Assembly (NCBI GenBank): GCA_019694855.1
Contig: JAIBBD010000007.1
Span: 1 to 60,618, forward strand
Source of the DNA: Dehalococcoidia bacterium
GTDB lineage: Bacteria; Chloroflexota; Dehalococcoidia; UBA2979
Length of the DNA stretch: 60,618 bases
Direction of reading: 5' to 3'
The notes below the pieces were generated by a model. That model did not search any database, was not told the DNA's origin, and saw only the letters and a list, made by a program, of their open reading frames with translations. Below are positions 24,718-47,144 of the stretch, one piece after another. The first letter of the stretch is position 1. Each line of letters opens with the position of its first letter. The translations under genes were made by a program, and so were the position numbers.

Positions 24718-25638
24718 ATGGCCCCCACCTGCACGGGACGGCTCATCTTGCATTACCAGCCTCCGAGGGCGCTCGGGCTTCTGGTCGGCACCCTGCTGAC
24801 GCTCTGGTCGGCCGGCGTCGCCGTGCTGCTCGCCAACAGCGGCATCGCCGCCGACGAGGGCTGGCAGGTCTTCATCACGTTCCTCGGCGCGACCCTCGCC
24901 GGTGCGCTCGCCGTCCTCTTCGCCTTCTGGACCTACAGCCTCGCCACCATCTCCTACCTGCTCGACCGCAACGGCCTCGTCATCGCCTGGGGCCCCACGA
25001 GGCAAATCGTGCCCCTGCGCGCCATCCGACGCCTCGTCCCCGCCTCCTCCGTCGGCGTCCCCCGCATCCGCGGCGTCTCCTGGTGGGGCCACCACGTCGG
25101 CCAGGGCGATGTCGCGCAGATCGGCAACGTCCTCTTCTACTCAACGCACCAGACCAGCGACCAGGTCCTCTACGTCGTCACTGCCGAGAAGAATTACGCG
25201 ATCTCGGTCGAGGATCCTGAAGCCTTCGCCCGCGAGGTGCTGATGCGCCAGGAGCTCGGCCCGACCGCGGAGGTCACCCACCACGTCGAGCGTTCCGGCG
25301 CGTCGCTCGAGTCCTTCTGGGCCGACCCGCGCGCGCGCTGGCTGGCCGCGGCCGCCGTCATCGGCCTCGCGCTCGTCTGGGCGCAGATCGCCCTGCGCTA
25401 TGGCTCCATCCCCGAACGCGAACCCCTGCACTTCCCCGTGAACGACACCGTCGTCTCCTCTCAGGGTCGCGAGGCGATCCTCGAGCTGCCGCGCACGGCC
25501 ACGTTCCTCCTCGCTGCGGACCTGATCCTCGGCGTCATCCTGCATTCTTGGGACCGCATGGCCGGCTACGTCCTGTTTGCCGCAGCCGTCGCCGTCGAGG
25601 TCGGCATCTTCGCCGCGATCGTGCTCGCGCTCTGGTGA
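24718..25638 (+). CDS. Membrane protein with bacterial PH-like domain
   Basis: The 306-residue product has two N-terminal helices (about 17-35 and 48-72), a soluble segment (about 75-170) starting LDRNGLVIAWGPTRQIVPLRAI that resembles a bacterial pleckstrin-homology fold, and three further C-terminal helices. The overall layout recalls the PH-domain membrane proteins of Gram-positive bacteria, whose functions are poorly known. The start is tentative: ATG at 24718, with a TTG ten codons later as an alternative. It lies 57 bases before the hydrolase-USP gene on the same strand. Confidence 0.65.
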   Translation: MAPTCTGRLILHYQPPRALGLLVGTLLTLWSAGVAVLLANSGIAADEGWQVFITFLGATLAGALAVLFAFWTYSLATISYLLDRNGLVIAWGPTRQIVPLRAIRRLVPASSVGVPRIRGVSWWGHHVGQGDVAQIGNVLFYSTHQTSDQVLYVVTAEKNYAISVEDPEAFAREVLMRQELGPTAEVTHHVERSGASLESFWADPRARWLAAAAVIGLALVWAQIALRYGSIPEREPLHFPVNDTVVSSQGREAILELPRTATFLLAADLILGVILHSWDRMAGYVLFAAAVAVEVGIFAAIVLALW

Positions 25639-25695: not shown

Positions 25696-27060
25696 ATGAG
25701 TGAGGCCGGAGCAGACCAACCCTCGCCGTCGTCTCCGACAGCGGCTGCCGATGGCCACGCGCCCGTGCCTCCACCGCCCCTCTTCGTGCGCCACGAGGTC
25801 AACGGGCTCGCCTACGGTCGCATTGACCAGGGCGACGGCCTCGCCATCATCGGGGCCTTCCCGCTGGGCATCACCCTCGATGGCATCGATCACACCAGCA
25901 CGCAGCGGACCTTCCTGGAAGCCCTCTCCGTTGGGCACGCCTTCGTCGCCTACGACCAGCGAGGCAGCGGTGGCTCCGCGCCCCTCGGCTCGGCGACCGA
26001 CTGGGAACAGCTGGGCGCCGATCTCTGGGCCGTCGCCGATGCTGCCGGGTTTGAGCGCGCCATTCTCTACGGTGTCTTCGACGCCGGTTACACGGCGATC
26101 CAGGCCGCGGCGATGCACCCCGACCGCGTCCTCGGTCTCATCCTGAACTTCGTCCCGCCCGTGTTCGGGCGTCCCGAGGGCGTCCCCGCCGAGCTCATGC
26201 AGTCCTGGGCGCTGAGCACCGACCCCGTCGAGGCCCAGAGCTTCGACCCGGTTCACCTGCTCCAGAACCTCGGGCTCGACGAGGGCGATGCGCAGGCCCT
26301 CGGCGCCGCCTGGCGCGCCTCGACCCTGGCCCAGGCCGTCCAGGCCCGGGCCGCCCTGCTGCCGCAGTTCGACCCTGCCCCACTCCTTCGTGAGTGCCGC
26401 GCCTCCGGGCTCATCATCGAGCCCCGGCGCCGCGCCCTCTTCCACGGCTGGGCTGACTCACTCGCTCAGTCCTACACCGGCGCAAAGATCGTCCGCCCCT
26501 CGAGAGGCAGCGAGGCGCTCGGGGCCATCTACGCCTACCTCGTACTGCGCAGCATCGAGGCCGGGCCGCTCGCCAGCCGCCTCTCGGCTGGCCTTTCGCA
26601 GACCGTCGCCGAGAGCGAGCGTGCCGTCCGCGAGCTGGATCACATCGTCGTCCCCGTCGACGGCAGCGTCGCCAGCGGCCGTGCCGTGAACCTCGCCTGC
26701 CGCCTCGGCGAGGCGCAGAACGCCGAACTCGTCCTCCTCCACGTCGTCGCCGTCCCGCGCTCCCGCGCGCTTGACGACCCGGCGCCCGAGGATGTCGCCC
26801 GCGGCGAGGCCGCCCTCCAGATCGGCTCCGCCATCGCCGCCCGCCACCACATCCGCTGGCGGACCCGCCTCACCTACCAGCGCGAGATGGTGGAAGGCAT
26901 CGTCCGCGTCGCGACCGAGGAGACCGCGGACCTCATCGTCATCGCGAACCCGGCCGCCGACGCCGAAGGCCCCGTCGCCAACATCATCGAGGAGCTGCTC
27001 CGCCGCGCACCCTGCGAGGTCCTCGTCGACCGCGGCGATCGCGTCGAGGTGCCGGCGTAA
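25696..27060 (+). CDS. Alpha/beta-hydrolase-like domain fused to a universal stress protein domain
   Basis: The 454-residue product joins an alpha/beta-hydrolase fold (about 28-300) to a C-terminal UspA domain (about 313-447, starting LDHIVVPVDGS). The hydrolase part has AYDQRGSGGS (85-94), as in hydrolase domains linked to adenylate cyclases and LuxR regulators. At the nucleophile elbow, where those have GVSQGG, this protein has GVFDAG (126-131): the serine is replaced by F128. The domain is therefore probably not a normal hydrolase and may sense a ligand. The Usp part has a poor ATP-binding glycine motif. The stop TAA overlaps the ATG of the potassium transporter by one base. Confidence 0.82.
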   Translation: MSEAGADQPSPSSPTAAADGHAPVPPPPLFVRHEVNGLAYGRIDQGDGLAIIGAFPLGITLDGIDHTSTQRTFLEALSVGHAFVAYDQRGSGGSAPLGSATDWEQLGADLWAVADAAGFERAILYGVFDAGYTAIQAAAMHPDRVLGLILNFVPPVFGRPEGVPAELMQSWALSTDPVEAQSFDPVHLLQNLGLDEGDAQALGAAWRASTLAQAVQARAALLPQFDPAPLLRECRASGLIIEPRRRALFHGWADSLAQSYTGAKIVRPSRGSEALGAIYAYLVLRSIEAGPLASRLSAGLSQTVAESERAVRELDHIVVPVDGSVASGRAVNLACRLGEAQNAELVLLHVVAVPRSRALDDPAPEDVARGEAALQIGSAIAARHHIRWRTRLTYQREMVEGIVRVATEETADLIVIANPAADAEGPVANIIEELLRRAPCEVLVDRGDRVEVPA

Positions 27061-29066
27061 TGGCTCGCGGCTGGGCGATCCGCCACCCGTTTGGGCGCCC
27101 GCTGCGGCGCAATGAGCTCTCTCATCAGACGCTGCCCAAGCGCTACGCCCTCCCGGTCTTCGCCAGCGACAACCTCTCCTCCGTCGCCTACGCCACCGAG
27201 GAGATCCTCATCGTCCTCGCGCTCGCGGGGAGCGCGTACTTCGCGGACGCGAGGTGGATCTCCGGGATCATCGTCGGCATGATCGTCGTCCTGCTCGTGA
27301 GCTACCGGCAGACGATCTTCGCGTATCCAAACGGCGCCGGCGCCTACATCGTCTCGCGGGACAACCTCGGCAAAGGTCCGGCCCAGGTCGCCGGCGCCTC
27401 CCTGCTGATGGACTACATCCTGACCGTCGCCGTGAGCATCTCCGCCGGCGTCGCCAACTTCTCGAGTGGCGTCCACCAGTTCGTTCCCAACATCCCCGTG
27501 TTCAACGACGAGGTCCGCGTCGCCATCGCGGTCAGCCTGCTCGCGATGATGTGGTACGTGAACAAGCGAGGCGTGCGCGAAAGCGGCCGCGCCTTCTCCA
27601 TCCCCACGTACTTCTTTCTCACCTCGGTCTTCATCATGCTGGGCGCCGGTCTCTTCCGGGCGTTCACCGGTGACCTGAACCAGGTGCAGGACGTCAAGGA
27701 CGTCATCGAGCCGACCCAGGGCATCAGTCTGTTCCTGCTCATACGCGCATTCGCCAGCGGGTCCACCGCCGTCACCGGCATCGAGGCCATCAGCGACGGC
27801 ATCCAGACCTTCCGCGAGCCCAAGTCTCGAAACGCCGCCAACACGATGGTGATCATGGCCGCCTTCGTCGCGGTCATGTTCCTCGGCATCACGCACCTCG
27901 CGATTGAGACAGGCGCACAGGCCAGCCACTCGGAGACGGTCATCTCGCAGATCGGCCGCACGGTCTTTACTCCGCACTCGCCGTTCTACATCGCCGTCAT
28001 CTTCGGCACTGCCGCGATCCTGATCATGGCCGCCAACACGGCCTTCGCCGACTTCCCCCGCCTCGCGGCCTTCCAGGCCGGCGACGGCTTCCTCCCGCGC
28101 TGGCTGCTCGATCGCGACAACCGCCTCGTCTTCGGCGTCGGGATCAGTGTCCTCTCCTTCGCGGCGGGGCTGCTCATCATCGTCTACCGTGCCGAGGTCT
28201 CCAGCCTGATCCCGCTCTACGCGATCGGCGTGTTCCTCTCCTTCACCCTCAGCCAGGCCGGCATGATCGTCCACTGGCAACGGGTCCGCCACGTCCCACC
28301 CGGCCAGCGCATCCCGCGCTACGCGGCGGGCAACATGCTCGTGACCACCCTCGAATACGATCCGCGCTGGCCCTGGAAGATGGCCATCTGCACGATCGGC
28401 ACCATCATGGCCGCCGTCGTGACCGTCATCTTCGCCGTCGCGAAGTTCACCGAGGGCGCATGGATCATCCTGGTCGTCATCCCGACGCTCGTGTTCCTGC
28501 TCTCACGCATCCACGCGCATTACCAGAACGTCGAGCGCGAGATCGGCGCCGAGGAGGTCGACATCAAGACCTACCTCCAGCGCCCGGTCCGCACCCTTCA
28601 GATCCTCGTGGTCGGCGACCTCAACAAGCACACCCTGCCCGCGCTCCGCGAGTTCGTGCATATGTCCGGCTACGGCGGCATCCGCCAGGCCGTCCACGTC
28701 AACGTCGACGAGGAGGCCACCACCGAGCTGAAGCGGCAGTGGCGCGATCTCGGCATCGACGCCATGGGCGTGCAGCTCGTCGTCCTCCCGAGCCACTTCG
28801 GTGCGGGCGACGTCATCGGCACGCTCAGCTCGTACGTCCACGGCGCGCTCTCCATCGACCCCGAGATCCGCGTGAACGTCGTGATTACCGACTGGGCCAC
28901 CAGCACCCGCTGGTGGGGCTGGCTGCTCACCCCGGCGCTGCATCACCTCACCGGCGCGCGCCTCCGGCTCGCCTTCCTCGCCGAGGACCGAGTCACCGTC
29001 ACCAATTACCGTTACCTCGCAGGGTCGTCGCTCGCCCTCTTCGGAGATCTCGACCGCACGGCATGA
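27060..29066 (+). CDS. kimA: KimA-like potassium uptake protein (APC superfamily)
   Basis: A 668-residue transporter closely resembling Bacillus KimA (YdaO), a high-affinity K+/H+ symporter inhibited by c-di-AMP. Shared segments include FASDNLSSVAYATEEILIVL (about 35-54), YRQTIFAYPNGAGAYIVS, SLLMDYILTVAVSISAG, MAANTAFADFP and LIPLYAIGVFLSFTLSQ. About 12 helices are followed by a cytosolic tail (from about 510, LQILVVGDLNKHTLPALREF) with a Usp-like fold, as in KimA. It could be mistaken for a generic amino acid permease. The one-base overlap with the hydrolase-Usp gene suggests the two proteins act together. Confidence 0.85.
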   Translation: MARGWAIRHPFGRPLRRNELSHQTLPKRYALPVFASDNLSSVAYATEEILIVLALAGSAYFADARWISGIIVGMIVVLLVSYRQTIFAYPNGAGAYIVSRDNLGKGPAQVAGASLLMDYILTVAVSISAGVANFSSGVHQFVPNIPVFNDEVRVAIAVSLLAMMWYVNKRGVRESGRAFSIPTYFFLTSVFIMLGAGLFRAFTGDLNQVQDVKDVIEPTQGISLFLLIRAFASGSTAVTGIEAISDGIQTFREPKSRNAANTMVIMAAFVAVMFLGITHLAIETGAQASHSETVISQIGRTVFTPHSPFYIAVIFGTAAILIMAANTAFADFPRLAAFQAGDGFLPRWLLDRDNRLVFGVGISVLSFAAGLLIIVYRAEVSSLIPLYAIGVFLSFTLSQAGMIVHWQRVRHVPPGQRIPRYAAGNMLVTTLEYDPRWPWKMAICTIGTIMAAVVTVIFAVAKFTEGAWIILVVIPTLVFLLSRIHAHYQNVEREIGAEEVDIKTYLQRPVRTLQILVVGDLNKHTLPALREFVHMSGYGGIRQAVHVNVDEEATTELKRQWRDLGIDAMGVQLVVLPSHFGAGDVIGTLSSYVHGALSIDPEIRVNVVITDWATSTRWWGWLLTPALHHLTGARLRLAFLAEDRVTVTNYRYLAGSSLALFGDLDRTA

Positions 29067-32926: not shown

Positions 32927-33365
32927 TCGCATTCGCAATCAATCGCCGATCTCCGATTAAGTCGTAAGAGTCCTCCCAGAATTCGCAATGCGGGCTTGAC
33001 ACCCCAACGCGACGTTAAGGTACTATTCGAGGGTCGCGTCAGGGTTTGCTTCGCTCTGGTCGCGTCGGTCGGGCTGCCTCACCCTGGAGGGTCGCCTCCC
33101 TCCCCTCGCCCGAACCCGTCGACGAGCCTCCCGGGTAGCCCTCAGCCCGGACGTCGTTTCTCAGTCTGACCGCGCCTCTCGGTCGCGCCTTGGTTGACCG
33201 GCTGTGCACGCTGCGCCATTTGCGTGCGGGTCAACACACCGACTGACTCCTTGTGCCTCGTTTGCGCCTTTCATCGCGCCTTGATCACTGCGCGCCTCGC
33301 TGCTCGGCGTTGCCATGTCACGCCCGCGGCGAGCTTCGGCCCGAGGAGGCCGGAAAGGTTCGACG
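32927..33365 (+). other. 439-base non-coding region, probable long 5' leader of the surface-protein gene
   Basis: No convincing frame is found here. The first 70 bases are AT-richer than the surroundings and contain ATTCGCAAT twice (32932 and 32981 regions). A promoter follows at 32996-33026. The remaining 340 bases are rich in C and T, with several short inverted repeats (for example TCGGGC and GCCCGA around 33068-33113). Near the end, a Shine-Dalgarno (GGAAAGG) precedes the ATG at 33366. I recognise no riboswitch class. Confidence 0.5.
32996..33026 (+). promoter_or_regulatory. Candidate promoter of the surface-protein gene
   Basis: A perfect -35 TTGACA (32996-33001) precedes TACTAT (33021-33026), a good -10 match but with a 19-base spacer. 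It would produce a leader of about 330 bases before the ATG at 33366. Confidence 0.5.
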
Positions 33366-34544
33366 ATGTCCGCAATTAGGAAACTCCTCGTCTCGACTGC
33401 CACGGTCATGGCGCTCGTCGCCGTCGTCTCCACGACGGTGATCTCGCTCACTAGCCCCGCCGAGGCGACCAAGCCGGGTGACGATGGCGAGCACAAGGTC
33501 CGCATCTGCCATCGCACCAACTCCGTCACCAACCCCTACGTCAGCATCGAGGTCGATGTCGCGGCAGCCGACGGCAGCGGTGACAAGGGCGACCACTACA
33601 GCGAGCACCAGGGCCCGCTCGCGAGCAGCGAGTCCGTCGCTCAGCAGTTCAAGGACGACAAGATCGAGTGGGGCGACATCATCCCCCCGATCGAGGGAGC
33701 TCATGACGGCCTGAACTGGACTGCAGAGGGCCAGGCGATCTGGGAGAACGACTGCAACATCTCTGAGGGCACGCCGACCGGCACGCCAATCAGCACCCCC
33801 CAGACCACGCCGACGGGTACGCCGACCGGGACCGCGACGTCGACCCCGACGAGCACGCCGACTTCGACTCCAACGTCCACTCCGACTTCGACGCCGACCA
33901 GCACCCCCACGTCGCAGGTCACCCCGACGCCAACCACGACTCCGACGTCGACGCCGACCACGACTCCGACGTCGACGCCGACTACGACCCCGACATCGAC
34001 GCCGACTACGACCCCGACGTCGACGCCAACCACGACCCCGACGTCGACGCCAACCACGACCCCAACGTCGACGCCAACCACGACCCCGACGTCGACGCCG
34101 ACCAGCACGCCCACGGCACAGGCCACCCCGACGCCGACGGGCACGGCGACCACCACCCCGACGTCAACGGCCACCAGCACGCCCACCTCGACGTCGACCA
34201 GCACGCCGACGACGCAGACGACGCCAACCTCGACCCCAACGAAGACGGCCACTTCGACCGCCACCGCCTCGGTGACGAGCACGCCCACCGTGGTCATCTC
34301 GGTCGCTGGCGCGACCCCGCCTGCTGGCGCCCAGCCTTCGAGCGGCGCCGTGGGGCAGGTCGCCCCACCGGCCATCGGTGTTCAGGGCGCCGCGCCGATT
34401 GCGCCGCGTCCGCCCAACACGGGTAACGCCGGCCTCGGTACCAGGACCACGAGCCCCGCGACGGCCTTCGCCTGGCTCGGCCTCGCCGGCCTGCTTACCG
34501 CGGCTGCTCGCTACTCGGTGCTGACGAGAAGCCGCCGCTCGTAA
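33366..34544 (+). CDS. Secreted surface protein with Thr/Pro-rich repeats and PNTG-like C-terminal anchor
   Basis: The 392-residue protein has a signal peptide (cleavage near AEA, residue 36). A small domain (about 40-135) follows, beginning KVRICHRTNSVTNPYVSIEV and including HYSEHQGP and IIPPI, a module seen in other bacterial surface proteins. Then come about 180 residues of TPTSTPT-type repeats (about 138-310). The C-terminus has PPNTGNAG, a hydrophobic stretch and the basic tail TRSRRS, the layout of an LPXTG-like cell-wall sorting or membrane-anchor signal. The repeats probably form an extended, glycosylated stalk. A strong terminator follows. Confidence 0.85.
   Translation: MSAIRKLLVSTATVMALVAVVSTTVISLTSPAEATKPGDDGEHKVRICHRTNSVTNPYVSIEVDVAAADGSGDKGDHYSEHQGPLASSESVAQQFKDDKIEWGDIIPPIEGAHDGLNWTAEGQAIWENDCNISEGTPTGTPISTPQTTPTGTPTGTATSTPTSTPTSTPTSTPTSTPTSTPTSQVTPTPTTTPTSTPTTTPTSTPTTTPTSTPTTTPTSTPTTTPTSTPTTTPTSTPTTTPTSTPTSTPTAQATPTPTGTATTTPTSTATSTPTSTSTSTPTTQTTPTSTPTKTATSTATASVTSTPTVVISVAGATPPAGAQPSSGAVGQVAPPAIGVQGAAPIAPRPPNTGNAGLGTRTTSPATAFAWLGLAGLLTAAARYSVLTRSRRS
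33927..34094 (+). repeat. Seven tandem copies of a 24-bp coding repeat
   Basis: Units begin at 33927, 33951, 33975, 33999, 34023, 34047 and 34071 and differ by only a few bases. Each encodes TPTTTPTS in frame. Looser TP-rich repeats flank them from about 33770 to 34290. Near-identical DNA copies suggest recent slippage, so copy number may vary between strains. Confidence 0.9.
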
Positions 34545-47017: not shown

Positions 47018-47035
47018 CTGATGTTCGGAGACCGA

Positions 47036-47120
47036 ACCGCATTCCTACGCACGGATGACCGTGATCAGGTTCGAGGGGTTGGTGGTCGCCCACCTCTCAG
47101 CCCGAAGGCACCCCCAGCGG
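47036..47120 (-). ncRNA. TPP riboswitch (THI element)
   Basis: The reverse strand carries the conserved TPP aptamer in order: GGGGGTGCC (47115-47107), CTGAGAGGTGG (47100-47090), ACCCCTCGAACCTGATCAC (about 47079-47061) and GCGTAGGAAT (47050-47041). These are the THI-box consensus segments, including the invariant CUGAGA and the ACCUGAUC stretch. Flanking GC-rich bases can close helix P1. It controls thiBPQ through the terminator just downstream. Confidence 0.95.
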
Positions 47121-47144
47121 ATCTCTGCGCTGTGACTGCTGCCG

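Follow-up and report, generated by a model that had tools for sequence, protein, structure and literature searches.

A pseudo-hydrolase–Usp fusion gene overlapping kimA in Dehalococcoidia encodes a candidate accessory subunit of a distinct KimA lineage

A 60,618-nucleotide stretch of contig JAIBBD010000007.1 (assembly GCA_019694855.1) from a Dehalococcoidia bacterium, hereafter the window, carries two overlapping genes on its forward strand. The first is an open reading frame (ORF) with an ATG start that encodes a fusion protein of 454 amino acids, with two domains recognized by Pfam, an α/β-hydrolase domain (Abhydrolase_1, residues 71–172, E 5e-8) followed by a universal stress protein domain (Usp, PF00582, E 3e-17). 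The second gene, kimA, encodes a transporter of the KimA type. The junction between the two reads GAGGTGCCGGCGTAATGG and contains the sequence TAATG, in which the stop codon of the fusion overlaps the start codon of kimA by one nucleotide. A Shine-Dalgarno-like GAGGTG is located 8 nucleotides 5' of the kimA ATG, and translational coupling of the two genes is possible on the strength of their overlap. Both the domain composition of the fusion and its overlap with a KimA-like gene had been proposed from the DNA alone in an original prediction, and they are borne out by the Pfam, structural and junction data.

The window KimA gives the Pfam match AA_permease_2, and matches the solved KimA of Bacillus subtilis (BsuKimA; PDB codes 6s3k, 8b70 and 8b71) over residues 9–619 with an E-value of 5e-97. 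The BsuKimA residues for K+ binding, gating and proton coupling, D36, Y43, T121, T230, E233 and Y377 (PMC6994465), have identical equivalents in D37, Y44, T122, T239, E242 and Y387 of the window protein, which is thus a KimA that is competent by its sequence. The single residue of the BsuKimA transmembrane domain that strongly contacts cyclic di-AMP (c-di-AMP), R337 (PMC10284832), is also kept, as R347, and the alignment over the C-terminal c-di-AMP pocket residues H579–S582 of BsuKimA is of low confidence. The c-di-AMP-responsive tail of KimA had been taken to be Usp-like, a description that needs correction: the fold of the cytosolic domain is published as PPAT-like and is not termed Usp there (PMC10284832).

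Homologues of the fusion were sought in two partly overlapping sets of genomes, 393 from the class and 400 from across the phylum, which together comprise about 740 distinct genomes. Full-length fusions were found in four of them, namely the window genome (G000), G059, G258 and G330, which represent four different families of one class, and the remaining matches at the same threshold cover the Usp part only. A profile built from the four sequences found no additional fusion in the orders of G059, G258 and G330, and a pattern-based locus search with the fusion or the window KimA returned no match, the sequences being too divergent for patterns. The three other fusions are 37–45% identical to the window fusion overall. 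In all four loci the next gene is kimA, which overlaps the fusion gene by 1 nucleotide in the window, by ATGA (4 nucleotides) in G059 and G258, and by 14 nucleotides in G330, and the outer neighbours of the pair differ from locus to locus. The pair is therefore not confined to the window genome, and the same arrangement, with the same elbow sequence described below, at 37–45% identity argues that it is not due to chance. KimA itself is common (91/393 class genomes and 232/400 phylum genomes at E ≤ 1e-40), and no fusion was detected within the 1.5-kb flanks of 56 other KimA loci. Every fusion found adjoins kimA and most kimA genes have no fusion; the family is rare rather than a general KimA trait. 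A general role of Usp proteins as KimA companions was considered and rejected: among KimA genes that do not belong to the fusion clade, a clear Usp gene lay nearby in one case, and two further matches were weak. The clear one (L128:4531-5415; G059:C40) is on the same strand as the KimA gene that G059 has besides the fusion-linked one, lies upstream of it, and encodes a separate protein of 295 residues with a Usp domain.

The hydrolase domain contains the elbow GVFDAG (residues 126–131), which according to the original prediction lacks the catalytic serine. For comparison, the closest intact relative looked at was used, a hydrolase-LuxR protein of G059 (L129:1172-2434; Abhydrolase_1 plus GerE). 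Its sequence GSSDGGYTAI aligns without gaps to GVFDAGYTAI of the window fusion with Phe128 at the Ser position, and an alignment to Est1, obtained in the PDB profile search, has the same register. These alignments indicate that Phe128 replaces the Ser and that D129 is the ordinary residue that follows it. The nucleophile-position Phe is present in all four fusions, none of which has an intact elbow Ser. At the acid site, the HRRDD of L129 corresponds to EPRRR, APKRR, EPQRR and EPR-R in the fusions, with replacement of the Asp by Arg, and P243, R245 and R246 of this loop are invariant. In each of the four fusions a deletion has removed the His-bearing segment, which reads GRNHIPQPQEP in L129. 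Abhydrolase_1 scores above the Pfam cut-off in two of the fusions (P0001 of the window and P0005), slightly below it in P0004, and is unlisted at E 0.001 in P0006; a profile of the four sequences matches hydrolases of the PDB. Judged from these alignments, the hydrolase is catalytically dead and the domain is retained in all four homologues. Its derivation from signalling-type hydrolases is likewise supported by the sequence comparisons.

The distribution of conserved positions within the four fusions is uneven. Invariant positions make up 46% of residues 71–154, which constitute the best-conserved part of the hydrolase domain, 10% of the cap and C-terminal half (14/146 positions), and 23% of the Usp domain. 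Within the elbow, LYGVFDAG[HY]T, only residue 132 (H or Y) varies, and residues 120–131 form the most conserved 12-residue stretch, with 11 of 12 positions invariant. Shuffling of invariant positions within the hydrolase domain produced a 12-residue stretch with at least 10 of them in 0.1% of the trials. The elbow is best conserved while the Ser, the acid and the His are lost in all four proteins, a combination that argues for selection on a new, non-hydrolytic function. A hydrolase of the same superfamily in G015 (L130:1224-2033, interrupted by the contig end) also has its elbow Ser replaced (GDWIGAW), and dead hydrolases of these kinds may be commoner in the class.

The Usp domain is above the Pfam cut-off in the four fusions. 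Its stand-alone relatives were sampled by taking the best stand-alone match in each genome regardless of its neighbours, which gave 39 loci. TrkA (RCK) and/or APC-permease genes adjoin the Usp gene in 38 of these, and the sole exception is interrupted by a contig end; many of the loci are orthologues of one operon, so that the 38 are not independent events. This linkage suggests that transporter control is a main job of this group of Usp proteins, and touches on the long-standing question of what universal stress proteins do. In other classes, the nearest stand-alone relatives carry an N-terminal hydrophobic stretch that resembles a membrane anchor. The lineage bears an EVPxTLPLD-like signature and accompanies TrkA (RCK) and/or APC-permease genes throughout the phylum (L005-L032, L039-L049 and L052-L066), sometimes with a membrane anchor, and sometimes with a Kdp-type kinase and its regulator (L054).

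A tree of 62 KimA proteins was calculated that included the three complete fusion-linked KimA and the second KimA of the window genome, C98 (L036; G000:C98, 259-4573). The KimA of G330, a 91-residue fragment interrupted by a contig end and 78% identical, was kept outside the tree. The fusion-linked KimA and C98 form one clade with a support of 100/100 and a long stem, which sits beside KimA proteins of other classes and apart from the usual KimA of its own class. The loop between the predicted transmembrane helices 10 and 11 (TM10-TM11 loop) is longer in this clade than in all other KimA compared. By analogy to KimA the loop would be cytoplasmic, and it is a possible docking site for the fusion. 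In C98, a Gly occupies the place of the c-di-AMP-contacting Arg337.

Two of the four pairs have Kdp-type kinase and regulator genes ahead of them or at their side, and so does the KimA paralogue of the window genome. C98 kimA directly follows the genes of a DUF4118 histidine kinase and an OmpR-type regulator. In G059 the same two genes are found ahead of the fusion-kimA pair, and in G330 they point away from it as a divergent unit. These kinases have a DUF4118-HisKA-HATPase organization, some with weak GAF matches, and contain neither the KdpD domain PF02702 nor a Usp domain; the fusion has no PF02702 domain and no kinase. The simplest history would start from an ancestor whose locus had the order kdpDE-fusion-kimA; in the window genome this locus would have been duplicated, and the two copies would then have lost different parts. 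No PF02702 match occurs anywhere in G059 or G330, and G000 and G258 each carry a separate KdpD-domain protein. The KdpD of G000 appears to be split (L138, G000:C21, 486-2550) into a 287-residue DUF4118-like membrane protein, seemingly devoid of a kinase part, and a 410-residue KdpD-domain protein. Diadenylate cyclase (DAC), whose presence was a check suggested at the outset, is encoded in all four fusion genomes, which makes c-di-AMP control of KimA plausible. No c-di-AMP riboswitch was found at the fusion/KimA loci with Rfam.

Table 1. Coordinates of the fusion gene, kimA and their elements in the window.
Feature	Position	Strand	Basis
Pseudo-hydrolase–Usp fusion	25696..27060	+	ORF, Pfam, alignment
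α/β-hydrolase-fold domain, about residues 41–300	25816..26595	+	Pfam, PDB profile search, invariant-column counts
Degenerate nucleophile elbow LYGVFDAGYT, residues 124–133	26065..26094	+	Alignments, invariant-column counts
Catalytic-acid loop, P-R-R-R at residues 243–246 instead of Asp	26422..26433	+	Alignments
Site of deletion of about 11 residues (catalytic His segment), between G271 and S272	26506..26511	+	Alignment with L129
Usp domain, residues 315–444	26638..27027	+	Pfam, motif check
Shine-Dalgarno-like GAGGTG for kimA, within the 3' end of the fusion gene	27046..27051	+	Sequence
TAATG overlap, fusion stop/kimA start	27058..27062	+	Sequence
KimA-type K+/H+ symporter, 668 amino acids	27060..29066	+	PDB match, residue alignment; PMC6994465, PMC10284832
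TM10-TM11 loop of the window KimA (predicted helices)	28278..28376	+	KimA comparison

Other features of the window include a gene for a membrane protein with a bacterial PH domain, bPH_5 (24718-25638, plus strand), which ends 57 nucleotides upstream of the fusion and has no counterpart at the other three fusion loci. An ORF at 33315-34544 contains Thr-Pro tandem repeats with periods of 24 and 48 nucleotides (33841-34213) and ends in PPNTG followed by a hydrophobic stretch, and looks like a surface protein. A TPP riboswitch (Rfam RF00059, 67.8 bits) is located at 47025-47125 on the minus strand. A search for plasmid matches found none.

In the reading that we favour, with a probability of roughly 55%, a distinct KimA lineage has the fusion as its dedicated accessory subunit, a pseudoenzyme; the best reading further links it to Kdp-type signalling. 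The fusion would be translated just ahead of kimA from the overlapping genes. Its Usp domain, whose lineage is otherwise a companion of TrkA/RCK and APC-permease genes, would probably dock on KimA from the cytoplasmic side, either at the cytosolic domain or at the TM10-TM11 loop that is enlarged in this clade. The dead hydrolase, remodelled at the GVFDAG elbow and at the Arg-Arg of the old acid loop, would receive the input or bind a partner and so tune K+ uptake, in addition to the probable c-di-AMP control of KimA itself. Physical contact with KimA and its regulation, along with the direction and the signal of that regulation, are inferred. This reading builds on the domain architecture and triad loss, the elbow conservation and the intact KimA transport residues. 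It is drawn from the position of the fusion before an overlapping kimA in four of four loci, from four families with different outer neighbours, from the single clade of fusion-linked KimA and the absence of the fusion at 56 other KimA loci, and from the TrkA/APC linkage of the Usp relatives, the nearby Kdp-type genes and the DAC of each genome.

Several observations weigh against this interpretation. The motif G-2x-G-9x-G(S/T), which characterizes ATP-binding Usp proteins of the TeaD/MJ0577 type (PMC3673472), has lost its glycines in all four fusions, which makes a nucleotide-sensing role of the Usp domain doubtful. C98, 69% identical to the window KimA and of the same clade, has no fusion, which shows that this KimA has no strict need of one. 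Only four fusions are known, all in draft or fragmented genomes, and a single-sequence AlphaFold model of the fusion was poor (mean pLDDT 39) and unusable. The original prediction of a regulatory subunit is partly supported: its dead hydrolase, its conserved gene pair and its K+ setting with DAC hold, its Usp domain has lost the nucleotide motif, and small-molecule sensing by the pocket, contact with KimA and production in a 1:1 ratio stand as proposals. The three outcomes named as refuting it, an intact elbow Ser in homologues, D129 as the nucleophile (judged by sequence alignment) and a gene pair confined to one genome, did not occur.

A bolder version, which we regard as tentative and rather unlikely, is a two-input K+ importer. 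Here a specific small molecule would bind to the dead, hydrolase-derived receptor domain, which would gate KimA through a non-nucleotide-binding Usp adaptor, with KimA separately responsive to c-di-AMP. If true, bacteria would have their own equivalent of hydrolase-derived receptors, one with direct action on an ion transporter.

The main rival to the accessory subunit, in our view also unlikely, is that the fusion mainly serves a Kdp-type two-component system, as an in-trans Usp module of the DUF4118 kinases, a scaffold or sensor, that controls transcription of kimA. The domain composition of the neighbouring kinases, the kinase and regulator genes by the pair in G059 and G330, and the lack of PF02702 in these two genomes are consistent with such a role, and there is a precedent in UspC, which scaffolds KdpD/KdpE in E. 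coli (PMC2714519). However, the fusion overlaps kimA and not the kinase genes; kdpDE genes are not near the pair in G258, where the contig measures 7.8 kb, and do not adjoin it in the window; C98 kimA, with kdpDE directly upstream, has no fusion; and G000 and G258 possess a KdpD-domain protein of their own.

It is more doubtful still that the fusion is an assembly or stability factor that helps KimA to fold, dimerize or hold together with no signal input. The overlap, by which the accessory protein would be made first, the elbow Phe and Ala, which would fill the old active site, and the poorly conserved cap and C-terminal half all suit this role, but the window genome's own KimA paralogue and many other KimA manage without a fusion, and the elbow is conserved more strictly than a mere fold seems to need. 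A mere operon partnership, in which the fusion has a function unrelated to K+, is improbable: the neighbours of the pair in the window, genes for the bPH_5 protein and for ABC exporters, show no clear role in K+ handling, but the pair recurs with overlap in four of four loci despite otherwise different neighbours, and the Usp lineage is tied to TrkA/APC genes. Finally, an enzyme with a non-standard catalytic residue is highly improbable, and D129 as an Asp nucleophile like those of dehalogenases or epoxide hydrolases was rejected, for although this residue is invariant, adjoins the nucleophile position and has precedents in related hydrolases with Asp nucleophiles, the ungapped alignments equate it with the residue after Ser in GSSDGGYT, and the partner residues are missing in all four fusions.

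A literature search that covered few subscription journals found no report of KimA with a hydrolase or Usp partner, in agreement with the earlier claim that no system of this form has been described. Already known are Usp regulators of transporters, Usp modules in KdpD signalling and the c-di-AMP control of KimA. BsuKimA, a K+/H+ symporter of the KUP family that is inhibited by c-di-AMP, shares full-length homology, the key transport residues and the R337 equivalent with the window KimA (PMC6994465, PMC10284832); no such partner protein was found described for the Bacillus protein, and the window clade differs in its longer TM10-TM11 loop. The post-translational control of KimA found described is by c-di-AMP, and a dedicated conserved partner would add a second path of control over K+ uptake. 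Among Usp proteins, Rv2623 regulates the transporter Rv1747 (PMC5549992), and TeaD of Halomonas elongata is encoded with, and regulates, the ectoine transporter TeaABC (Schweikhard 2010, as cited in PMC3673472). TeaD resembles the fusion in being encoded with a transporter, which holds for the fusion in all four loci, and is a weak profile match of its Usp part (E 0.008); unlike the fusion, it is a lone ATP-binding Usp, whereas the fusion Usp has no glycine motif and is joined to a dead hydrolase. The Usp domain of KdpD, which binds c-di-AMP in S. aureus (PMC4686210), and UspC are comparable as Usp modules in K+ signalling, and Kdp-type kinases are found near several fusion-related loci; by contrast, the fusion Usp lies outside the kinase, in a separate protein whose gene overlaps kimA.

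For the hydrolase half, the nearest likeness is to the α/β-hydrolase-LuxR (GerE) proteins such as L129, which also combine a hydrolase with an output domain and have near-identical elbow surroundings, but keep the Ser, Asp and His and have a DNA-binding output domain in place of Usp. In plants, receptors of the GID1 type consist of a hydrolase fold without catalysis that has turned receptor. The fusion resembles them in its hydrolase fold with lost catalysis, a likeness of description, and, if regulatory, it would show clearly that a bacterial hydrolase can become a regulatory module.

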